This document shows, one piece after another, positions 29,871 to 42,019 of a stretch of 52,424 nucleotides of DNA; positions within the stretch are counted from its first letter, which is position 1; the number at the start of each line of letters is the position of its first letter. The notes under the pieces are model-generated. The model saw nothing but the letters and a program-made list of their open reading frames with translations, searched no databases and had not been told where the DNA came from. The position numbers and the translations under genes are program-made. Source of the stretch: an uncultured Geobacteraceae bacterium (GTDB lineage Bacteria; Desulfobacterota; Desulfuromonadia; Geobacterales; Pseudopelobacteraceae); contig CAIRBT010000044.1 of assembly GCA_903876875.1 (NCBI GenBank), positions 1 to 52,424 of the forward strand, given 5' to 3'.

Positions 29871-30353
29871 TCAAAGAACCGCCAAAATGGTGAAAGTGGG
29901 TGCCCCGACAGAATCAACAGCAGGGACATCATCACCGATGCGGAGACCCAAGAGTCGTTTACCCAGGGGTGAACCGGGGGTAATAACCACAATTTCCCCC
30001 TCCCCGTCGGCAAACTTCATCCCCCCACCCTGGGGCCCGAGAAACACCCGGCGCAGAGAGCCGTCAGTGCCCTCAAGGGTGACCAGGGCAGTCAACCTGA
30101 TTGGCGTATCCTCATCGAAAGCTTTGAGCACGAGAGAACGATAGCTTTCCAGGGCAACCCTGATTTCCTGGGCACGATTGGCCTGCCCCTGGGCTATGTA
30201 GGAAGACTCCAGAGCCGTCGTATCATATTTGTTATCAGGTTGGCACTCCTCATGGGTGGCCGCCCCGTGTGCCGCAAGTGCGGCCTGGGAGAACACCGCC
30301 AGATCTGCAGTAAGAGCCGCCAGTATGTTATCACGCAACAGTTCTTTGGTCAT
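29871..30353 (-). CDS. GreA/GreB-like transcription factor
   Basis: The 160-aa protein resembles the GreA/GreB/Rnk superfamily. A charged helical N-terminal half has ENKYDTRGLEAS-like sequence (here DNKYDTTALESSYIAQGQANRAQEI), and a C-terminal FKBP-like domain has VVITPGSPLGKRLLGLRIGDDV, which matches GreA's ITPxSPLGxALLGKKVGD. It lacks the full long coiled coil with the acidic tip (DxxE) of true GreA, so cleavage stimulation is doubtful; binding in the RNA polymerase secondary channel is possible. Its ATG overlaps the stop of the UPF0182 gene (ATGA), and the DTW gene starts right after its own stop. Confidence 0.8.
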   Translation of the reverse strand: MTKELLRDNILAALTADLAVFSQAALAAHGAATHEECQPDNKYDTTALESSYIAQGQANRAQEIRVALESYRSLVLKAFDEDTPIRLTALVTLEGTDGSLRRVFLGPQGGGMKFADGEGEIVVITPGSPLGKRLLGLRIGDDVPAVDSVGAPTFTILAVL

Positions 30354-33032
30354 CGTTCCTGAGCCATCCGTTTCAGTATCTGTTCGAGTTTACGCAACTC
30401 GTCACCATAGGCACCCCACTCCCCCTGCCGTTGCAGGGTGGTCGCCTTTTCGTAGATTTTCATCGCCTCCCGTGCCAGAGAACCAGGGAATGTATCCCCA
30501 CTCACGGTGACCGGAGTCACGGCAGGAATCAGCGGTTTTTTTTCACCGAATAACCGTTGCAATGCCAGCTCCAAATTTTCTTCCATAACGACTTCATCAT
30601 TAAAAGCCACAATGACTCGCTTGAGCTCCGGCAGGGCTGACTTGTCGGCAGCCAGAAAAAGCGGCTGTACGTACAGAAGAGATTTTTCAATCGGTATCAC
30701 CAGCATACTCCCCCGAATAACTTCCGAACCACGCTGATTCCAGAGGGTTAATTGTTGTGATATGAAAGAATCCTGGTTAATACGGGCATCGATCTGTTTC
30801 GGACCGTAAATCAGCCGATCCCGGGGAAAGGTATAGGCTCTAATTTTCCCGTAATTGGAACCATCACAGCGAGCCGCCAACCAGGCAGCGAGGTTATCCC
30901 GCTTTGAGGGGGTGAATGGAAGCAGCAGCGCATACTCTTCCTGCTTTTCACCAGGCAGCTTCATAATGGTGTAATAGGGCTCCATCGGCTTGTCACCAAG
31001 AGCCGGTATCTGCCAGAGATTCTCCTTATTATAAAACACCTTGGGGTCGGTCATATGATAGGCGGCAAACAGGGACGCCTGCAGTTGCAAAAACTGATGG
31101 GGATAACGCACATGGGCACGCAGATCATCGGGCATGGCGGCAATCGGCTTAAACAACCCCGGAAACATCCGGTCGTAGACCCGCACCAGCAGATCCAGGG
31201 GATCGCTGATATAAAAACTGACCGTACCGTCATAGGCATCAACCACCGCCTTGACCGAGTTCCTCATGTAGTTTATCCCCCCCCTGAAGCGGTTTGGAAT
31301 AGGGAAGACGGTCCGAGTAGGTATAGGCATCAATAATCCAGGCAAGCCCCCCGTTTTTTCGCACGACCATATAGGGATCGCCGTCATACCGGAGAAAGGG
31401 GGCAATGGCTCTCACCCGTTCATTAATGTTTCGATTGAAAATGATCCGGCTTTCCGGGGTAATATCCGACGAAAGGATAATCTTCTCAGTTTTAAAACGG
31501 GCGGCAAAGAGCAGTTTTGTGAACAGTGAATCAATGGGTACCCCTCCTTTTCCGGCATAGGTGGTGTTAATGTTGCCGGTGGCGGTCGGATAGCTGAATT
31601 CGGGAACCCGGGTTTTCACGACAACATAGTCGTTGGAAAGTTCACCAAAATAGATTTCTGGGCGGGTCACCTTGATATCGGCCTGGCTGACCGGAGGAAT
31701 ATCTTTGACGAAAAACTCCGGGAGCCCTTCCTTGCTGATCCGACTGACCGGACCAAAGGTGATGCCGTTGCCATGAGTAAAAATAAGCCGTTCATTTATC
31801 CAGTTTTTGCTCGGAAGATCGGCATAGGAAAGCTCCCGAGGTGATAACATCACCTGGGTGTACTGACCATTTACCAGATAACGGTCGTTATCCACATCGA
31901 AAAACTTGTAGTAGGTGCGGATTTGCTGTAACTGACTGTATGTTTTCAGAAGCGGTGCATGATCCCACAAACGGATGTTCTTGATGGTGGCAGCATTGGC
32001 AGCAATATCAGTTGCAGTCAGCTTGGAATCCACGTCAAACGGCACCGTTTCAATTTTTTCAAGATCATAACCGAAACGGGTAAACTTGAGATTATGTTCA
32101 ATGTAAGGGGTCTCAAGTGCCAGTTCATTGGGTGAAACTTTAAATTTTTGCAACAGCCCCGGGTAGAGGTGGATACCAATGCCGTAGACAGCGAAGATGA
32201 AGAGCGGAGGTATCACTGCCCTGCGCCAGGCTCCCTTCCAGAGTGCCACCACCATGACCACGCCACCAATCGGCGTCACCACCGTCAACGTCCGCAGGGT
32301 CATCAAGCGTGAGTTGACATCTACATACCCAGCACCGTAAAAACTCCCCCGGGAGGCAAACAGCAGGTTAAAACCGTCAAGATAGAAACCGGCAGCAATA
32401 ACGCAGACAAAGAGACCGATGAGCAGAGCCAGATGCCGGCGCACCATTTGATCAACGGTTACCCCTAAACCGGTGGAAACGATCCCCCCCCGAACGAAAT
32501 AGACACCACCGGTCATCACCAGTGACACCGGCACCAGAAAAGCAGCATACCCCCTGACCATTTCCCAAAAAGGAAGGCTAAACAGATAGAAACCAAGATC
32601 GGCTCCAATAACTGGATCTACGGTTCCGACGGTGATCCGGTTCATGAAGGTTAACAAACCATCCCACTGGAAGGCACCCCAGTTAGCAGCAAGCAATGCC
32701 ATGACAAAACAGATAAGTGTGCCGAGCGGTCTGATAAAGCGCATGGCTTCATCACGCCGCATCCGCATGGCGACCCCCTGTATGAAGAGGCCGCTGCGGG
32801 GAAATTCGCTCCGGTCAGCATACACGATGTTACCGATAAGAAACAGAAATGCCACCATACCGAAAAGTAAACCGGCCGCTGCCTTCGCGTAAAACACCGT
32901 CGTAAAAACCTGGGAGTAGCCGTTTTCTGAAAAAAACAACCAGTCCGTGGAGAAGGTCACAAACGACGATAAAAATGGTAACACAACAACCGCTAAAACG
33001 GCCAGCACCATAAGCCTGTTTTTCTGTAGCAT
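30350..33032 (-). CDS. UPF0182 family membrane protein, split by a frameshift
   Basis: UPF0182 proteins are large (about 900 aa) membrane proteins of unknown function. Here two frames share the gene: the N-terminal 597 residues (33032-31239), with about seven transmembrane helices in the first 300 and a soluble region, and the C-terminal part (about 31276-30350). The first frame reads DAYTYSDRLPYSKPLQGG, and the second continues INYMRNSVKAVVDAYDGTV, which is contiguous in relatives. The switch is at a G8 run (C8 on plus at 31277-31284). Removing one G gives one frame of 893 codons. It may be a sequencing error, a real lesion or slippage. The gene follows the membrane ATPase by 35 bp and overlaps the GreA-like start. 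Confidence 0.85.
31277..31284. other. C8 homopolymer at the UPF0182 frame break
   Basis: Eight C on the plus strand (G8 in the gene) mark the exact point where the UPF0182 reading frame shifts by one. Seven would restore it. Such runs slip easily in polymerases and sequencers, and phase variation is a third possibility. Confidence 0.85.
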
Positions 33033-33067: not shown

Positions 33068-33937
33068 CTACGTTGTGGGAAACCAGATACCGGCACCCAT
33101 GGTCATACCGATATCACGGCACCCCAGATAATCACTATGTACCCGCAAGCCGTTTTCCGATATTGCCAACCCCACCTCAACTTTGTGGAATGCCTCGTTC
33201 CGACTGTGGTCGGCAACCAGCAGAACAGTGGATTTAATCTGCCGCAGTTTCAGATAGAGTTCGGAAATGTTTTTCAGATTTTCCGGAAAGAAATCCTCCA
33301 CCGGATCGAGTACCACCAATTTGCATTTGAAATATTCGACAAATTTATGGAGATACGCATAGGTTTTGGTCATACTGCCGGACACATCAATCAGCAACGG
33401 CGAGACACCAAAACATTCATCAAACAGAGATATGTGGGTGAAATTATCAATATTTTCATCCATACGAAAGGACAAGGCAGTGGCATCGGGCCACTCCCTG
33501 CCAAGCCGTTTAAAGCGACGATGGCTGTCCTCGTCGGTATCACGGGCATTGATATAGAGAACCTTTCCCGGTTGAAGACAGGGGAAATGATCGAGAAATG
33601 GCACATTAAACGCCACTGACATGGCAAGTTGGGTGGCAAGAGTGGTTTTACCAAATACCGAACTGGCCTGCAGCGAAACGAGAGCATTGGCCGGTATAAG
33701 CTCATCTATCAGATATTCTTCAGGTTTTGGTGCAACAAAGGGGCGGTTTAGCCACTCCTTTATGCCAAGATTCTGTGCAAAAGGATTCTCCTCGATCTTC
33801 ATATTGGCGGAAATTGACATGTTTTGTGGTGCCTCCCCGGTGCAGAAACATTCCCAAACTGAATAAATCAGTACCATCAATACCATAGCAACTGCACTGC
33901 CCACAAGTGCGATATTACGATTACCTCCTTTCCCCAT
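33068..33937 (-). CDS. Membrane-tethered RecA/RepA-like ATPase, degenerate Walker A
   Basis: The protein has a single transmembrane helix near its N terminus (about 8-28), then a linker and an AAA_25/RepA-KaiC-like domain from about 75. Walker A is A91-SSVF-G96-K97-T98-T99, where the usual first Gly is Ala. A strand VLYINARDTDED resembles the second conserved strand, and Walker B is KLVVLDPVEDFF with Asp211. Sensor-like AVLLVADHSRNEA follows. Typical members are soluble replication or regulatory ATPases; an anchored version is unusual. It is the first gene of the leftward operon running through UPF0182. I assign the fold but no function. Confidence 0.72.
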   Translation of the reverse strand: MGKGGNRNIALVGSAVAMVLMVLIYSVWECFCTGEAPQNMSISANMKIEENPFAQNLGIKEWLNRPFVAPKPEEYLIDELIPANALVSLQASSVFGKTTLATQLAMSVAFNVPFLDHFPCLQPGKVLYINARDTDEDSHRRFKRLGREWPDATALSFRMDENIDNFTHISLFDECFGVSPLLIDVSGSMTKTYAYLHKFVEYFKCKLVVLDPVEDFFPENLKNISELYLKLRQIKSTVLLVADHSRNEAFHKVEVGLAISENGLRVHSDYLGCRDIGMTMGAGIWFPTT

Positions 33938-34285
33938 GGTCCGGATTTCTGCCTTTCATACACGTAATATCTATTGCATCACCCCCCATAAAACCCCTGC
34001 GACAATTTGAGCTTCACCTCCATGGGGCAACACATCTTAACCTACCGTAATGCCGTACTTTATTTATTTCTGAGCATACTCCTGTCAACTTTTGTCGCAG
34101 GGGTTTTATTTTTTTAGATTTTTATCACGCTGTAATCACTGAGTTTTTTCAACGACCTGCAGTGGCATGATTGCTGCTACCTATTAGCCAATAGATAGCT
34201 CAACCAACGTAATACGAAGGGATTTTACGCTATTTTACAGACATTCATGTTGCATATTCTACCGTAAATCAAGGAGACAAGCGGT
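33938..34285. other. Divergent intergenic region, 348 bp, no ORF
   Basis: This gap separates the leftward ATPase operon from the rightward unknown gene. It holds the 18-bp inverted repeat described separately, then AT-rich sequence with no gene. The last 25 bp contain an AAGGAG Shine-Dalgarno for the gene at 34286. TTTACA followed by TATTCT 15 bp later (near 34236-34262) is only a weak promoter candidate. Confidence 0.6.
33988..34109. repeat. 18-bp perfect inverted repeat around 86 bp (MITE-like or structured RNA)
   Basis: ATAAAACCCCTGCGACAA at 33988-34005 is exactly complementary to 34092-34109. The 122-bp unit has no ORF and no obvious target duplication next to it (flanks ACCCCCC and TTTTTTAG). 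On the plus strand the right arm runs into ATTTTTTTAG, so the unit could fold as a terminator or a small RNA. Terminal inverted repeats of a non-autonomous element are equally possible. Confidence 0.8.
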
Positions 34286-34978
34286 ATGGCAATTTCTCTT
34301 GCTGACTATATCACCGCTGTTGCCGGCATTGGCACAGCAGCCGTTGCACTGGTTGACAGCAGTAAAACTGTACGGGGTGGTATCTCAAACTGCGGCTTCT
34401 GGCATATCAGACGGGTGGTAACGAATCTTTTCCCGAATGACCCCGCAGGTGCAGATGCAACATCTCCTCTGGAATTGGCTGATGTATTGGCAGCACTCCG
34501 GGCAAATTGGCTGAATGGCACCCCCCTTACTGATCAGATCAAACTTGCACGGTCACTGATAGCTCTCCGACTTGATGCTATCACCGCACCACACCTTGCC
34601 CTCATTACCGGAGTGGATCCAACCATACTCACCACCGGAGCAGATAAAATGCGCATTGGTGAACCGCTTGACAAACAGGAAACTGCAGTAGTCGCCAGAT
34701 GCAACCTTATGGTGGCTGCGTTGCTCGACGAAGGGTATCTGTGTGCCGACCAGACCTATCGGAATGCCTCCAAGGTAACGGCAGGTGCCCTAGCCATGCT
34801 ACTTGCCACCATCGGTGGGTGGACACTCAGTACCAGTGCCTATTGGGGAACGTCTGACATGGGTATCGCTCTACTGGCAGGAGTTTTTGCAACACCACTG
34901 GCACCGGTGGCAAAAGATTTATCCAAAGCTGTGACAGCCGCTGCCCGGATACGAGCACAAGTAGCAAAGACAGGCTAA
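34286..34978 (+). CDS. Unknown protein, Ala-rich with two hydrophobic segments
   Basis: The 230-aa protein is not recognised. It starts with an amphipathic/hydrophobic stretch (LADYITAVAGIGTAAVALVDS, two pieces), has a soluble middle (about 40-165) with GFWHIRRVVTNLFPND and VDPTILTTGADKMRIGEPL, and a hydrophobic segment near 166-190 (ALAMLLATIGGWTLSTSAYWG) and 193-207. It could be a membrane-associated protein. An AAGGAG Shine-Dalgarno precedes the ATG. It is 50 bp from the lipoprotein gene on the same strand. Possible pairing with that gene rests on adjacency alone. Confidence 0.65.
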   Translation: MAISLADYITAVAGIGTAAVALVDSSKTVRGGISNCGFWHIRRVVTNLFPNDPAGADATSPLELADVLAALRANWLNGTPLTDQIKLARSLIALRLDAITAPHLALITGVDPTILTTGADKMRIGEPLDKQETAVVARCNLMVAALLDEGYLCADQTYRNASKVTAGALAMLLATIGGWTLSTSAYWGTSDMGIALLAGVFATPLAPVAKDLSKAVTAAARIRAQVAKTG

Positions 34979-35028
34979 GCACAAGCATCCATCACAAACG
35001 AATCACAACCGAAAGAAGGGAGGAACAA

Positions 35029-35952
35029 ATGGTAAGAAAACTGTTTTTGTGGAGTATCGGAATGACACTTTTAGGCGGCTGCGGCTATTATGGCGGGGAT
35101 ACTCCCGAAAAAAGCACCACAAATCAATATGTCGGCTTGACGACCCCTGCACGCATCACCTCCGCCAATGCGAAAACCTTGTCAGAAAACGCTTACAGCA
35201 CGGATCGAATTGTGGCATCCGCCACCAGGGTTGGCAAAGCAACCACCGATGTCAGTAGCTCACCATGTCTTCTGCAAAGTTTTAGCAGCACATTACAAGG
35301 GAGCGTGATGTCATCACTGTTACGCTCTTCAGCTTCGAATAAGATCGTCGCCTCGGCTATTCAACAAAATATTTCAGGCTCACGTGGTTCTCTCAGCTAC
35401 AAGGCAGATCTTGACCTAAAAACCGGTAACTTCGCCGGTACATTGACCTTCGACCAATATCAAAATACCAATACCTCGGCTGCAATAACCGGAACAACAG
35501 ATTACAGTGGGCACCTCGAACCAACAACATCCAGATTCACCACTTTGAATATGCGTATGAACAGCCTGAATGCAACTATTGCCGGGGGTAAATCGTACAC
35601 CGTGTCCGGTACTATCTCGTTTTCAAACGCAAATTTGAATGATGTATCAATAGCATCGGTTGTACTTACCAACAATAGTACCGGGAGCACCCATTGGTTT
35701 AAAGATTACCAGATGACACATACGGGGAATACATTGACCATAAAAGGCACCTATTATGAGCCAACCGAGGGCTATGTTTCAATGAGCACCATTACCCCGC
35801 TCTCAGTAGCAGCCGCCGATGCCGCACCACTCTCCGGCAAATTGCTGCTTACCGGCAGCGACAACACCAAAGCCAGAGTAACGTACACCAACAGCATCCA
35901 GACCGTTGAAGCTGATACGGCAGGTAGCGGCACCTATACGGTGATACCATAA
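35029..35952 (+). CDS. Unknown secreted lipoprotein, Ser/Thr-rich and beta-rich
   Basis: A signal peptide with lipobox LLGGC puts Cys18 at the membrane surface. The mature part (about 290 residues) is rich in Ser, Thr, Asn and Gly with alternating hydrophobic positions, as in beta-sandwich or barrel proteins: YKADLDLKTGNFAGTLTF, YSGHLEPTTSRFTTLN and LLLTGSDNTKARVTYTNS. No known domain is recognised. It is preceded by a GGAGG Shine-Dalgarno, follows the unknown gene at 34286 by 50 bp, and is followed by a strong palindrome. It resembles variable outer-surface lipoproteins of Geobacter in general composition. Confidence 0.72.
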   Translation: MVRKLFLWSIGMTLLGGCGYYGGDTPEKSTTNQYVGLTTPARITSANAKTLSENAYSTDRIVASATRVGKATTDVSSSPCLLQSFSSTLQGSVMSSLLRSSASNKIVASAIQQNISGSRGSLSYKADLDLKTGNFAGTLTFDQYQNTNTSAAITGTTDYSGHLEPTTSRFTTLNMRMNSLNATIAGGKSYTVSGTISFSNANLNDVSIASVVLTNNSTGSTHWFKDYQMTHTGNTLTIKGTYYEPTEGYVSMSTITPLSVAAADAAPLSGKLLLTGSDNTKARVTYTNSIQTVEADTAGSGTYTVIP

Positions 35953-35972
35953 GTGGGTTATTAAATCTCCCC

Positions 35973-36002
35973 TGTAGGGGCACAGGTCACCGTGCCCCTA
36001 CA
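35973..36002. terminator. 11-bp GC-rich palindrome at convergent ends
   Basis: TGTAGGGGCAC (35973-35983) pairs with GTGCCCCTACA (35992-36002) around 8 nt (AGGTCACC), itself partly symmetrical. It separates the rightward lipoprotein gene from the leftward NtrC-like gene. Similar palindromes are common as dispersed repeats in Geobacter-type genomes; the hairpin at 29352 shares its core. Confidence 0.75.
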
Positions 36003-36015
36003 ATACGTTGTTTCC

Positions 36016-37356
36016 CTACTCATCCTGTACCACACCGTGATATTTACTCACTTTTCTCTTGAATCTTTTATAATCTATTCCCAGTAATTCAGCCGCATAC
36101 ATCTTTTTGCCCCCCGATCGTTGGAGTGCCTCTTCAATGGCCCAGAGTTCCAACTCGTCAAATTTCAGCGTTGGGGGCATGATTGAACGGGACGATGCCA
36201 TAGGGACATCTTTCGGCAGTAGTTGCATAATCTGTTCACCGTTAATTTGCTTTGAACCATAGATTGCAGCGCGTCGAATGATATTTTTCATCTGGGTAAT
36301 ATTACCGGGCCAGGGGTATGCCAACAATATATCAACGGCATCATTTGAGAGTGACAGGCCGGAACGATGCAGGTCTTCCTCCGCTTCTTTGAGGAAAAGT
36401 GCTGCCAAGCGAGGGATCTCCTCCACTATCGTACGTAACGGTGGCAATTTGATTACCTGTTCCGTAAGCTGGTAAAAGAGGGATTCTGTAAGTTTTCCCT
36501 CAGCATATTCTGCCTGAGCGCTTTTGAGGAGGGTAGCCACAACTCGACTTTTGATTTGTAACGGCTCAAGACCGCCAACGGGTAATATTTCTTTATTCTG
36601 GATAGCCCGGGCTACCTTATTCTGCATGGCCAACGACATGGTATTAGGTTCGATAAGAATCACCGTTCCCGGGCCGATGGAGACCAGCTTACCCACCTGT
36701 TTTCCCCGGCCAAAGAGTTCCACTTCCAGATGTTCATCGCTACAGCCACCGCAATGTATGGTTATACAGGGAGAACGGGGGTTTCTCCCCAATGAATGAA
36801 TTATGTGTGCCAGACGGGTTTTACCGACCCCGGATTCCCCCTCAATGGTCAGACAATACCCATGTTCCGAGGCATAACTAGCCTCATCACCAATCGCCTG
36901 CATCGGGAGACTCCAACCAAGCTCGTTTGAAAGAGTGTTGCCAAGCTTGGCTTGGAGCCTGTGTATCTGCAAGTCTTGAAGAAGTGGTGTCGCGACTCGT
37001 TGAATAGTGGCGGCCAGCTGTTCATAATCAAGTGGTTTACTCACAAACCCGCAGACACCCAGGTCAATGGACTTAAGCAGGTATTCCACTTCCGTAAATG
37101 CCGTGGTAATAATTACCGGTATGGTGGGATATTTTGACTTAAGCTGTGTCGTAAATTCGATACCGTCCATGTTTGACATCTGAATATCAGTAAGAACAAT
37201 ATCGGGGAGATTTTCCTCAACCATTCGTAACGCATCAACGCCATCTACCGCAGTGGCAACGTTTTCATACTGCATGGCCAGATAAAGTGATACCGCCGTA
37301 CGCAACCCCGAATCATCTTCAACATACAATAAATTCAACGGTAACCGCTTGGACAT
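36016..37356 (-). CDS. NtrC-like response regulator lacking the GAFTGA loop
   Basis: Domains are a receiver (1-125, phospho-acceptor Asp57 in LTDIQM), an AAA+ domain of NtrC type (about 150-370) and a Fis-type helix-turn-helix (about 400-440, MYAAELLGIDYKRFKRKV). Walker A is intact at 173-180 (GESGVGKT), and LPPLRTIVEEIPRLA and YPWPGNITQMKNIIRR are recognisable. But between ELFG and the Walker B region the sequence is only RGKQVGKLVSIGPGTVILIEP: the GAFTGA loop is missing and Walker B lacks its usual DE. It therefore probably cannot contact sigma-54 and may regulate by another route. It lies 58 bp downstream of the hybrid kinase gene on the same strand. Confidence 0.9.
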   Translation of the reverse strand: MSKRLPLNLLYVEDDSGLRTAVSLYLAMQYENVATAVDGVDALRMVEENLPDIVLTDIQMSNMDGIEFTTQLKSKYPTIPVIITTAFTEVEYLLKSIDLGVCGFVSKPLDYEQLAATIQRVATPLLQDLQIHRLQAKLGNTLSNELGWSLPMQAIGDEASYASEHGYCLTIEGESGVGKTRLAHIIHSLGRNPRSPCITIHCGGCSDEHLEVELFGRGKQVGKLVSIGPGTVILIEPNTMSLAMQNKVARAIQNKEILPVGGLEPLQIKSRVVATLLKSAQAEYAEGKLTESLFYQLTEQVIKLPPLRTIVEEIPRLAALFLKEAEEDLHRSGLSLSNDAVDILLAYPWPGNITQMKNIIRRAAIYGSKQINGEQIMQLLPKDVPMASSRSIMPPTLKFDELELWAIEEALQRSGGKKMYAAELLGIDYKRFKRKVSKYHGVVQDE

Positions 37357-37414
37357 ACTACACCTCCATGTCGTAGTTGGGCAAAATGTGCCATATCATT
37401 ATTCACAAATAAAC

Positions 37415-39679
37415 TTAACTGGTAAGTTTCTTAATCTTGCTTATAAGTTCCAATGGATTGAGCGGTTTCTCAATCAATTCGATATCATCTGAACCGCCCA
37501 GGTTACCAATAACATCCTGAGCATGACCGCTGATAAAGATGAAGGGCACCTTCTGAGAGAGAGCCCTGATTTCTTCATAGGTTGCTTTACCACTTTTGTT
37601 CGGCATAATCACATCCGAAATAACCAGATCAATTTCATCTTTTTTAGTCGTAAATATGTCCACCGCTTGACAACCATCCATGGCTGTTATGACGTTGTAG
37701 CCACTTTGAATGAGAATTTTACTCATTACGTTACAAAAATTCACATCATCTTCAACGAGAAGAATAGTCGCCAGATGATTGGATGTAATGGACTCCGGTG
37801 ATGTGTACCGGTTAATCTCACCGTCAGACCACTGATCCGGCATGGATTCCGCCAAGGGAAACTGCAGGCTGAAAACCGTCCCCACCCCGACGCTGCTCTG
37901 CACATCTATAATACCATCGTGCTGCATGATAATGCCGAAAACCATCGAAAGACCAAGACCCGTACCTTTCCCCACATCCTTGGTGGTAAAGAACGGATCA
38001 AAGATACACCGCTGGGTTTCTTCATTCATACCATGGCCGGTATCGCTCACCGTTATAATGGCGCAACGCACCTTATCGGTCGATTCAGACTCGGAGCCAC
38101 GATTACGGGGCATCAAGCCAGCCCGGGCCGAGATGTGCAGTGTGCCCCCCCTTGGCATCGCATCCCGCGCATTCGTTGCCAGATTAATCATGACCTGCTC
38201 AATTTGGCCGGCGTCAATATATGTCATGAGCGGTTCATCGGATAATTCAATTGTTAGTTCAATATCTTCCCGTATCAGGTGTTTAATAAACTGTCCCACC
38301 TTGCTGAGCAGGACATTAAGATTCTCAGTCTTAATTCTCATTATCTGTTTACGGCCATAGGCAAGCATACTGTGGGTAATGGCACCCGCCCTGTTAGATG
38401 CAGCCATAATTTCATTAACGTATTGAATATGCTCCGCACTCATGCCACTTGCCATTTTAAGAAGAATTCCATAGGCATTGATAATGCTCAGCTTATTATT
38501 CAAATCATGGGCGAGACCACCTGCCAACTGACCGATGGTCTCAACTTTTTGTGAATGAACAAGCTGGGCTATCAGCTCTTTTTTCTCCGTAATATCCTCT
38601 TTCACCGCAACGAAATTTGAAATGGCACCGGAATCATCATAGAGAGGAGAGACAATGACGTGTTCCCACAGAATACTGCCATCCTTCCGCTTATCCTGAA
38701 GCTCACCGTTCCAGGAGTGACCGGACAAAATGGTTGTCCAGATATCGGCATACAACTTCGACGTAGTACTGTCCGAAGACAATTGATACGGCATCTGGCC
38801 TATCGCCTCGTCAAAGGTGTATCCGGTATTTTTGGTAAAACTTCTATTCACAAACTCTATTTGACCCTTGGAATCAGTAATCAGAATAGAAGTGGGACTC
38901 TGTTCAATGGCACACGACAGTTTGTGCATCTTATTTTCATTGTATTTAAGATGGGTAATATCGACATTTTTCTTATTGGTAACATCACTAATACAGCCAT
39001 GCCACAGAACCGTGCCATCGTTCTGCCTCGAAGGCACCGCGATGCCATAATGCCATCGAATATCCAGACCGGGTAAAAGCACCCGGTATTCATACTCCCA
39101 CGTTTCAAGCACTTCAGCAGAAAGCCGCAGTGAGTCCTGTAAACCTTGTATATCATCGGGATAAATGACAGCGAAGAGGGGTGAGGCATCAGTCAATACC
39201 TGTGCCGGCGTCAAACCATACAGTTCAGTAATTGCCGAACTTGCATAGGGAAACGAAAAAAGACCATCGGGAAAGAGACAGCATTGGTAAATCATGCCCG
39301 GCACCTGCTGAGAGATAACCGTAAGGAGATTTTGAGTCTGTTCCAGATTTTCTAAAACAAATTTCTGTTCTTCAAAACGTCGGGTAAGTTCCTGTTCAGA
39401 CTGCTCACTCCGGAACGTCTGAACACGCATACTGCGGCACATGAAAATGAAACCAGCAATTCCCACCAACCATATCCCGCCAAGTACCAGAAAAAAGGTA
39501 CACAAACGCTGACAGATCTGATCCTTATCACAGGAAAAAACCATTGAAGATAACGAATGTACATGTTCAACTTTGCACAATAGGTAGGCACACAGTCCGG
39601 CACTACCGGCAATGAGAAATGACCACGACGTAATCAATGCCGTAAGTGTTGTCCCACATATCCTGAATTGAGCTCTCAT
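37415..39679 (-). CDS. Membrane hybrid histidine kinase (PAS-PAS-HisKA-HATPase-REC)
   Basis: From ATG 39679 the 754-aa protein has two transmembrane helices (about 13-35 and 60-80), two PAS/PAC modules (about 105-235 and 250-375), a dimerisation domain with the H-box LAGGLAHDLNNKLS, an ATPase with ATNARDAMPRGG, DTGHGMNEE and GTGLGLSMV, and a C-terminal receiver with the acceptor in VISDVIMPNKSG. An in-frame start at 39832 would add 51 residues without family likeness and cross a palindrome, so 39679 is preferred although its Shine-Dalgarno is weak. It precedes the NtrC-like regulator by 58 bp; the two are likely partners. The signal is unknown. Confidence 0.9.
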   Translation of the reverse strand: MRAQFRICGTTLTALITSWSFLIAGSAGLCAYLLCKVEHVHSLSSMVFSCDKDQICQRLCTFFLVLGGIWLVGIAGFIFMCRSMRVQTFRSEQSEQELTRRFEEQKFVLENLEQTQNLLTVISQQVPGMIYQCCLFPDGLFSFPYASSAITELYGLTPAQVLTDASPLFAVIYPDDIQGLQDSLRLSAEVLETWEYEYRVLLPGLDIRWHYGIAVPSRQNDGTVLWHGCISDVTNKKNVDITHLKYNENKMHKLSCAIEQSPTSILITDSKGQIEFVNRSFTKNTGYTFDEAIGQMPYQLSSDSTTSKLYADIWTTILSGHSWNGELQDKRKDGSILWEHVIVSPLYDDSGAISNFVAVKEDITEKKELIAQLVHSQKVETIGQLAGGLAHDLNNKLSIINAYGILLKMASGMSAEHIQYVNEIMAASNRAGAITHSMLAYGRKQIMRIKTENLNVLLSKVGQFIKHLIREDIELTIELSDEPLMTYIDAGQIEQVMINLATNARDAMPRGGTLHISARAGLMPRNRGSESESTDKVRCAIITVSDTGHGMNEETQRCIFDPFFTTKDVGKGTGLGLSMVFGIIMQHDGIIDVQSSVGVGTVFSLQFPLAESMPDQWSDGEINRYTSPESITSNHLATILLVEDDVNFCNVMSKILIQSGYNVITAMDGCQAVDIFTTKKDEIDLVISDVIMPNKSGKATYEEIRALSQKVPFIFISGHAQDVIGNLGGSDDIELIEKPLNPLELISKIKKLTS

Positions 39680-39816
39680 TTCTTGTAGTATCACCCATTG
39701 TTCGTAATTGACACACCAAATTCGCCATAAAATATTCTCTGACAGCAGTATAATACCGCAGAAAACTACACTCCTCCCTGTTCCAATTTGAATATGATCA
39801 CCACAGAGGTCAACCG

Positions 39817-39921
39817 GTATTTTATTACACATAAAATACTACAGGCATCACTTGCACTTACAAAATGGCATTTCAAATGCCATGTGGTTATTTTAGCCAC
39901 TCACGTAGTCATAATGACTAC
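39817..39921. repeat. Cluster of four short palindromes upstream of the hybrid kinase
   Basis: Four inverted repeats fall within 105 bp. They are GTATTTTAT/ATAAAATAC (39817-39839, 5-nt loop), ATGGCATTT/AAATGCCAT (39865-39883, 1-nt centre), GTGGTTA/TAGCCAC (39884-39900, 3-nt centre, one G-T pair) and GTAGTCAT/ATGACTAC (39905-39921, 1-nt centre). The last three are packed with centres 18-21 bp apart. This fits two-fold symmetric protein sites or recombination-type sites better than RNA hairpins, because the loops are too short. The remaining 39680-39992 sequence holds no gene that I can support. Confidence 0.75.
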
Positions 39922-39992
39922 CAAAGGAATTTACTGGAGATTTCTCGTCAGACAGACACTTCGGAGCCATTTTACTTGTAATGGGGAAAAAC

Positions 39993-40027
39993 AAAAAAAG
40001 CACCTACAGAATGAACTGTAGATGCTT
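39993..40027 (-). terminator. Intrinsic terminator of tRNA-Pro
   Basis: On the minus strand AAGCATCTACAG pairs with CTGTAGGTGCTT (one G-T) around a 6-nt loop and is followed by TTTTTGTTTTT. It lies 9 bp past the tRNA 3' end. Confidence 0.9.
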
Positions 40028-40035
40028 GAATTTGC

Positions 40036-40112
40036 TGGTCGGTGAGACTGGAATCGAACCAGCGACCCCCTGCTCCCAAGGCAGGTGCGCTACCAGGCTG
40101 CGCTACTCACCG
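40036..40112 (-). tRNA. tRNA-Pro (anticodon UGG)
   Basis: The minus strand shows acceptor CGGTGAG/CTCACCG with discriminator A, D-arm AGCGCAGCCTGGTAGCGC, anticodon loop CTTGGGA between CCTGC and GCAGG (anticodon TGG), T-loop GGTTCGATTCC and an encoded CCA (40036-40038). It is the last product of the leftward dxs transcript region, with its own terminator. Confidence 0.96.
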
Positions 40113-40123
40113 CAAGAATAGAT

Positions 40124-42019
40124 TTATAGCACCAACTCTAAACTTTTGTCAACAGTAAAATATGATCTTATCGAAGTTGCTATTCCTGCAGTGTCAAGTC
40201 CCACCATGGCACGCAGTTCATGTTGCTCACCCTGGGGGAGGTAAGTATCCGGATAACCGAGGCGTAACACACTGATACCGTGAAGATTATGCTCTTCAAG
40301 AAGCTCCAGAATGGCAGAACCAAAGCCTCCCTGTCGGGCATTTTCCTCCACAGTTATCAGCAAGCCCGTCTGACGTGCCCAGCCAAGAATCATCTGTTCA
40401 TCAAGAGGTTTAACGAAACGGCCATTGACGACAGCAAGCTCAATTCCCTCGCCAGCAAGAATCTCTGCTGCCTCACATGCCGGAGATACCATCGTTCCAA
40501 GGGCAATAATAGCCCCGTGAATCCCCTCACGAAGCGGTTCGGCCCTGCCAATGGGGAGGCGGTGTAATGCCTGGTCCAGTGCCACACCATAACCGTTGCC
40601 CCGTGGATAACGAATTGCAGCGGGAGTACCCAATGAAAGTGCGGTTGCCAGCATATGCTGGAGTTCGTTCTCATCTTTCGGAACCATCAGAGTCATATTG
40701 GGAAGATGGCGCAGATATGAGATATCAAAGGTACCGTGGTGGGTTGGCCCATCGCTGCCTACCACGCCACACCGGTCAATGGCAAAAGTGACCGGCAGGT
40801 TCTGTAGGCAGACGTCGTGACAGACCTGATCATAAGCACGCTGGAGAAAACTTGAATAAATGGCGCATACGGGATGGTATCCCCCTGCCGCTAGTCCGGC
40901 GGCAAAGGTTACCCCATGCTGCTCGGCAATACCAACATCAAAAAAACGCTCCGGGAATTCGGCAGCAAAGCCTGTCAGTCCGGTTCCGTCAGGCATGGCA
41001 GCGGTTATGGCTGCGACCCGTTCATCTTCGGCCGCCAGGCGACAGAGTGCCGCACCGAAAACCGAGGTATACGATGCCCCTCCCCCTTTTCCCTTAAGAA
41101 CCTTGCCACTCGCCATCTCAAAGGGACCGACCCCATGAAAAAGAGAGGGATTAGCCTCGGCAGGACCGTACCCTTTACCTTTTTTAGTAAGCACATGAAC
41201 CAACACCGCACTGTCAAATTTACTGACATTTTCCAGTGTTTCTACCAATGCGGAAAGATCATGACCATCAACCGGACCGATATATTCGAACCCGAAGGCC
41301 TCAAAGAGCATACCGGGGGTAAACATCCCCTTAAAGGACTCTTCCATTTTACGGGCCACATGCAACACACCCTTACCTATTTCCAGACGGTTCAGAAACG
41401 ATTCGGTATTCTTCTTAAAGCGATGAACAAATTCACTGGATGCCGTACGGGAGAGGAAGGTGGAAAGCGCACCAACGTTCTCAGCTATGGACATTTCATT
41501 ATCATTCAAAATAACAATCATATCGCGATTAAGATGTCCGGCATGGTTGATTGCCTCATAGGCCAGACCACCGGTCATGGAACCGTCACCGATAACCGCC
41601 AGCACCTTGCCGTCCCGACCATCCAGGTCACGGGCAACCGCCAGGCCGGTTGCAGCAGAAATCGAGGTTGAGGAATGTCCCACATCGAACTGATCATGTT
41701 CCGATTCATGACGTTTGGGAAATCCGCTGACACCATCAAGCCTGCGGAGTGTATTAAAAGCCTCCCGCCGACCTGTCAACAGCTTATGGGCGTATGCCTG
41801 ATGCCCCACATCCCAGATAATTTTATCATAGGGTGTGGTAAACACCCGATGCAAGGCTATGGTTAACTCCACGACCCCCAGTGAAGGCGCAAGATGTCCC
41901 CCATTGGTAGCACAGGTATGAATAATAGTTCGACGCAGTTCTGCGGCCAAATCAGGAAGCAGTATTTCCGGAAGACGCTTTACGTCATCAGGAGAATTAA
42001 TTTTTTCGAGAAGAGCCAT
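40124..42019 (-). CDS. dxs: 1-deoxy-D-xylulose-5-phosphate synthase
   Basis: Dxs condenses pyruvate and glyceraldehyde-3-phosphate, the first step of the MEP isoprenoid pathway, using thiamine diphosphate. From ATG 42019 (631 aa) the sequence opens [17 protein letters not shown] as in the family. The ThDP motif [31 protein letters not shown], the Gly-His [13 protein letters not shown] segment and [18 protein letters not shown] are all present. A second ATG 15 bp upstream is possible, but GAGAGA lies close to the chosen one. It directly follows ispA, which links it to farnesyl diphosphate synthesis, and ends 11 bp before tRNA-Pro. Confidence 0.96.

Follow-up and report, generated by a model that had tools for sequence, protein, structure and literature searches.

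A predicted tandem operator beside a kinase/NtrC-like regulator operon recurs upstream of surface-protein genes in an uncultured Geobacteraceae lineage

Upstream of a kinase/regulator operon in an uncultured Geobacteraceae genome (G000) lies a pair of 17-bp dyads, very likely a matched pair of predicted protein-binding sites that together form the tandem operator of a regulon. Because the same pair recurs before genes for adhesins, secretion, and further surface proteins, both in this genome and in a close relative (G013), it most likely acts as a genetic switch under the control of the neighbouring regulator. Computation shows the tandem operator itself, the conservation of the pair, its repeated occurrence in front of surface genes, and the loss of the GAFTGA motif from the regulator. 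All coordinates refer to the window—the whole stretch of 52,424 nucleotides that was analysed—unless another genome or contig is named. The features concerned are:

39817–39839, no strand assigned: site 1, an AT-rich palindrome in the spacer with 9-bp arms and a 5-nt centre; arms not kept in G013
39865–39883, no strand assigned: site 2, a palindrome in the spacer with 9-bp arms and a 1-nt centre; not conserved in G013
39884–39900, minus strand: site 3, the downstream dyad of the tandem operator, GTGGCTAAAATAACCAC in gene direction; 6 of 8 pairs match, 15 of 17 bases identical in G013
39905–39921, minus strand: site 4, the upstream dyad of the tandem operator, GTAGTCATTATGACTAC in gene direction; 8-bp arms, 1-nt centre, 15 of 17 bases identical in G013
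39884–39921, minus strand: tandem operator of 38 bp (17-4-17), two copies of the 17-bp dyad
39808–39813, minus strand: −35-like TTGACC of a putative promoter, 70 bp below the operator; conserved in G013
39785–39790, minus strand: putative, weak −10-like CAAATT, 17 bp past TTGACC
37415–39679, minus strand: hybrid sensor histidine kinase (PAS, HATPase, receiver); start set by comparison with G013
36016–37356, minus strand: NtrC-like response regulator (receiver, AAA+, Fis-type HTH) without GAFTGA; proposed operator ligand
40036–40112, minus strand: tRNA-Pro(TGG), the gene upstream, with a terminator-like hairpin at 39998–40027

The original prediction had described four palindromes within 105 bp (39817–39921), and all four were confirmed there, between the kinase gene and the tRNA-Pro gene with its terminator-like hairpin; three of them have perfect arms of at least 8 bp. 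Counting palindromes with perfect arms of ≥8 bp and centres of 0–5 nt, we found eight in the entire 52-kb window, three of which (sites 1, 2, and 4) fall inside the 105 bp. Dinucleotide shuffles of the 319-bp intergenic region (n = 20,000) produced two palindromes per 105 bp in 11 cases and three in none, and shuffles of the whole window (n = 100) produced two in 3 cases and three in none. The cluster is real and beyond chance, and the shuffle test proposed with the original prediction thus lends no support to a chance origin. Its geometry is less uniform than had been claimed: with centre-to-centre spacings of 46, 18, and 21 bp along sites 1–4, the stacking at two helical turns is exact for sites 3 and 4, approximate for sites 2 and 3, and does not extend to site 1. 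Nor do all arm sequences differ, sites 3 and 4 being variants of one 17-bp dyad.

The relative G013 belongs to the same genus and carries the operon in the same place by tRNA-Pro (kinase 89 percent identical over 517 residues, regulator 84 percent). It is the sole close relative found with the kinase/regulator operon; besides it, no regulator above 50 percent identity was found among 141 genomes of the order. Since the G013 orthologue starts at the position matching 39679 and has no earlier in-frame start, the window kinase probably starts there as well, which would make the palindrome region non-coding; a start at 39832 was ruled out by the same comparison. The kinase has 754 residues in the window (37415–39679) and 990 in G013 (L042 5463–8435), where additional sensor-region sequence is present that is missing from the window kinase. 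Two proteins without a Pfam match (34286–34978 and 35029–35952), possibly functional partners of the operon, are conserved beside it in G013.

The DNA block 39808–39922 is conserved in G013, and sites 3 and 4 stand out within it, with 32 of 38 operator bases identical, compared with 96 of 170 flanking bases. Between operator and TTGACC is a ~70-bp spacer whose length is kept within about one base while its sequence is not; it holds sites 1 and 2, which look incidental. The arms of sites 3 and 4 are conserved and those of sites 1 and 2 are not, so all four sites as a single array were rejected. It is improbable that all four palindromes make up a single control region for several proteins. In favour of this, no shuffle matched the count of three perfect palindromes within 105 bp, yet sites 1 and 2 diverge in G013 despite the constant spacer length, and inspection by eye revealed neither of them as a common element below the other operators. 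The predicted control region for the kinase/NtrC-like pair is supported for sites 3 and 4, which are kept in G013 and recur in the same tandem arrangement before other genes; these two represent one operator type and lend no support to a multi-protein region.

The dyad of sites 3 and 4 approximates GTRGTYATNATRACYAC, with copies 21 bp apart, and has the 17-bp length of NtrC sites. Across the 26 dyads of 13 aligned operators, matching pairs averaged 4.8 of 8 per dyad, against 2.2 in control 17-mers. Scored by offset, the consensus peaked at −21 (8.93) and +21 (7.87), over a mean of 5.88 (sd 0.69). Conservation between orthologous operators varied: it was clear for the adhesin pair (29/38 identical vs 99/170 in the flanks) and showed little or no excess for the type I secretion (24/38 vs 95/170) and skp pairs (19/39 vs 78/170). 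Taken singly, the dyad (≤3 mismatches) was not enriched in G000, with 507+469 matches against 874+920 for the reversed pattern, and it was weak in the window alone, where 15 of 100 shuffles gave as many as its 3 matches. The best single-dyad matches proved to be pairs with the same spacing.

We built two search models of the pair: R1, a sequence-only model from nine seeds, run on 58 genomes, and R2, from 13 seeds, run on 277 genomes of the class. Scores of both are partly circular, because the seeds were picked by eye among the single-dyad matches listed, the better ones being taken. Ten tandem sites were aligned for R1 and nine used, C158:13153 being excluded for its spacing of 20; R2 leaves out this site and C79:6927 (spacing 22). 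Neither model used C42, which has no second dyad, the third dyad of C79, or the matches at G013 C75, G013 C124, and G000 C162, which were judged from the sequence around the match only.

At E < 0.01, R1 returned 15 rows, of which G032 and G007 account for one each and G000, G013, and G012 for the other 13. Four non-seed places were among them (G013 C151, G000 C158:13153, G012 C3, and G013 C36:53096), and two further ones scored more weakly (E 0.042 and 0.075). All six, distributed over G000, G013, and G012, are intergenic by called genes and each lies upstream of one. At E ≤ 0.05, R2 found eight places in G000, six in G013, and one in G012, plus a single match in each of 13 further genomes. 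In seven of these 13 the match reached E < 0.01; each of the seven was inspected and lies inside a stop-free frame of 92–425 codons, several of which are clearly genes, although a stop-free frame is weak evidence alone, as the window and C57 operators themselves fall in such frames, of 92 and 208 codons, respectively. From their sequences we take the surrounding proteins to include tryptophan synthase, transposases, and a dehydrogenase. In a lax search, five same-genus genomes without the window-type regulator (G003, G011, G016, G020, and G028) gave best R2 E-values of 0.48–1.5, and G005 gave 0.22.

The operators stand 89–344 bp upstream of the starts of called genes (by ORF calls), several of which encode secretion or surface proteins. 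Besides the kinase/regulator operon itself (G000 and G013), they comprise a GT41 glycosyltransferase/OEP/ABC/HlyD operon for type I secretion (G000 C57, G013 C151), Ig-repeat proteins, that is, adhesins (G000 C79, G013 C85), and OmpH/Skp-like chaperones (G000 C79 and G013 C36, the latter assigned by its sequence). A further group consists of secreted fibre-like proteins with a common TYQGYL start, found twice on G000 C158, on C81, on G013 C36, and in G012; two carry a phage-tail collar domain, the G012 one has collagen repeats and Lcl_C, and two fragments had no Pfam match. Single targets are a LuxE-like protein (G013 C142) and a receiver-only regulator (G000 C83). The G012 operator sits 9 bp past a regulator gene, whose product is 44 percent identical to the window regulator, and 344 bp upstream of the secreted-fibre gene.

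The window regulator matches Response_reg, Sigma54_activat, AAA_lid_14, and HTH_8 above the Pfam cut-offs, and five regulators of its type were compared (G000, G013, G012, G043, and G045). GAFTGA is absent from all five by pattern search and alignment; the exact motif was likewise not found by the same pattern in 7 of 25 other loci, three of which have one-letter variants. The Walker B acidic pair is also lost in 5/5, while Walker A is kept as GE[SA]G[VT]GK in 5/5 by alignment (a narrower pattern missed three), and the recognition helix DYKRFKRK is common to all. The next-nearest regulators scored at most 439 bits, against at least 776 for the five, a gap that is in part circular, these five having supplied the profile. 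Two more NtrC-like regulators without recognisable GAFTGA, of a type differing from the five, occur at L068 and L073 (G084 and G105).

The operator is likely bound by the neighbouring NtrC-like regulator. It is present in three of the five window-type genomes, the three of one genus (G000, G013, and G012). In the two more distant ones, G043 and G045, whose regulators have 49–50 percent identity and the same recognition helix, R2 gave no match at E ≤ 2. A regulator of this type without the operator would also suit a rival reading, unlikely but deserving of attention, in which the tandem operator is real and a different transcription factor co-regulates the operon and the surface genes. Another factor common to the three genomes could be that ligand; one example is the GAFTGA-bearing paralogue G000:C57:53224-54567, which adjoins the operator-bearing type I secretion operon on the same contig and whose HTH has SGGKKM and FKR in common with the window regulator. 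However, G003, G011, and G028 have paralogues of the C57 type (by HTH comparison) and give no R2 match with an E below 0.47, whereas G012 has the operator and no match in the score range of the C57 paralogue (its two matches scored 776 and 343 bits). A shared sigma54 element (GG-N10-GC) was also not found downstream of the operators at the eight sites scanned.

The loss of GAFTGA and of Walker B argues that the regulator probably works at sigma70-type promoters, and probably autoregulates. The target promoters are putatively of the sigma70 type. A TTGA lies 65–70 bp below the operator in nine of 15 sites (0 of 3000 shuffles gave more than six) and in six of 12 when one member of each of three orthologous pairs is taken (2 of 3000 shuffles reached six), with the reservation that the motif was tested after being chosen by inspection of these same sequences. 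The other six of the 15 have no TTGA at this distance; C83 had none when read toward its nearest downstream gene, and the operator offsets of G013 C85 and the G013 skp gene are possibly one base off. The −10 candidates that follow after 17 bp are weak; they read CAAATT in the window, CTAATT in G013, and CACATT at both type I secretion promoters. A scan of eight sites (one in both directions) for GG-N10-GC, the −24/−12 element of sigma54 promoters, revealed no shared element downstream of the operators, and a sigma54 promoter was therefore rejected; the sole strong match was palindrome site 2 of the window itself, with weak matches at two other sites.

Site 2 is also terminator-like by score on the plus strand, as it might be if the palindromes acted as RNA hairpins (terminator or leader structure) instead of DNA sites. 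We consider this very improbable: site 2 is not conserved in G013, and the conserved pair recurs upstream of the putative −35 element and so would not be transcribed from that promoter. An Rfam search of 33800–40300 matched nothing except the tRNA, ruling out an Rfam RNA in this interval.

Equally hard to credit is a reading of the palindromes as a site of recombination or attachment, or as members of a dispersed palindromic repeat family of the kind reported for Geobacter bemidjiensis in an excerpt of PMC2996986. The cluster does lie only 115 bp from a tRNA gene, and in G013 (L042 8817–10430) an insertion of ~1.5 kb separates a duplicate of the tRNA-Pro tail plus terminator from the intact tRNA-Pro. 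The junctions of this insertion are nonetheless at the tRNA side, away from the palindromes, and the 201-bp stretch is single-copy in its own genome; on these two grounds an attachment site was rejected. In addition, the operator copies have only 38 bp in common and stand 89–344 bp upstream of called genes. The original prediction's suggestion of a recombination site or palindrome-rich element thus found no sign in its favour. The position of the G013 insertion between tail copy and intact tRNA suggests, as a separate matter, that the tRNA-Pro 3′ end is an integration site.

Our best explanation as a whole, which we hold to be reasonably probable, is a tandem operator bound by the same-operon regulator, with autoregulation at a sigma70-type promoter and co-regulation of surface genes. 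Two 17-bp dyads 21 bp apart would present the same helix face, and the best candidate ligand would be the dimeric Fis-type DNA-binding domain of the regulator (36016–37356), which retains a phosphorylatable receiver and Walker A but lacks both the GAFTGA loop that contacts sigma54 and the acidic residues of Walker B. A pair of phosphorylated regulator dimers may bind ~70 bp upstream of TTGACC and so act on a sigma70-type promoter whose −10 is weak, by which the kinase/regulator operon would be autoregulated; the same regulator would co-regulate the genes for type I secretion, Ig-repeat adhesins, secreted fibre-like proteins, and Skp-like chaperones. We infer the identity of the binding protein, the promoter type, autoregulation, and that the regulator activates rather than represses. 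More tentative, and to our minds somewhat short of an even chance, is the wider proposal that a whole surface-attachment programme, comprising type I secretion, giant adhesins, periplasmic chaperones, and fibre proteins, has as its master switch a hitherto undescribed class of NtrC-like response regulator in Geobacteraceae, one that neither contacts sigma54 nor hydrolyses ATP and that reads the tandem GTGGTCATNATGACCAC operator at a fixed distance from sigma70-type promoters.

The arrangement is like a classical NtrC-type sigma54 enhancer in its paired 17-bp dyads well upstream of a promoter and unlike it in having no shared GG-N10-GC downstream and a regulator without GAFTGA. Tandem sites far upstream of the start are reportedly also a feature of Rhodobacter capsulatus NtrC. 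In an excerpt of PMC10274813, R. capsulatus NtrC, Caulobacter NtrC, and V. cholerae VspR are given as GAFTGA-less NtrC proteins at sigma70 promoters; Caulobacter NtrC autoregulates and R. capsulatus NtrC needs ATP binding rather than hydrolysis. As far as that excerpt goes, the two NtrC proteins share with the window regulator the receiver-AAA+-HTH architecture and the missing GAFTGA, and autoregulation, found in Caulobacter, is predicted here. In contrast to them, Walker B is degenerate here too, and the predicted targets are adhesin, secretion, and surface genes, not nitrogen genes. FlrA/FleQ-type inverted repeats of Desulfovibrio, yGTCA-N6-TGACr in an excerpt of PMC4641369, likewise have GTCA/TGAC half-sites upstream of an NtrC-family regulator and cell-exterior targets; judged by the same excerpt, our half-sites differ in lying 3 bp apart, not 6, and in forming dyads in a tandem pair.

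An exact-string literature search did not find the operator sequence in print, and neither motif nor regulon was found in the published literature searched; the regulon is new, its kind known. If the explanation is true, it provides a testable link from one two-component system to the adhesin and secretion equipment of an uncultured Geobacteraceae lineage, and another NtrC-like protein would have moved from sigma54 to sigma70, this time outside the Alphaproteobacteria. The operator motif would also allow the regulon to be detected in other genomes.

Two further observations concern the same window. At 30350–33032, a UPF0182 protein extends over two overlapping frames (profile positions 2–581 and 589–770), a split that is a frameshift, either real or assembly-derived. 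Within 33937–34286 (window 33975–34115) lies an inverted repeat, CCCCTGCGACA / TGTCGCAGGGG, with its halves separated by ~100 bp; over 45 bp it shows 93 percent identity to G013, and parts match three other places in the genome.
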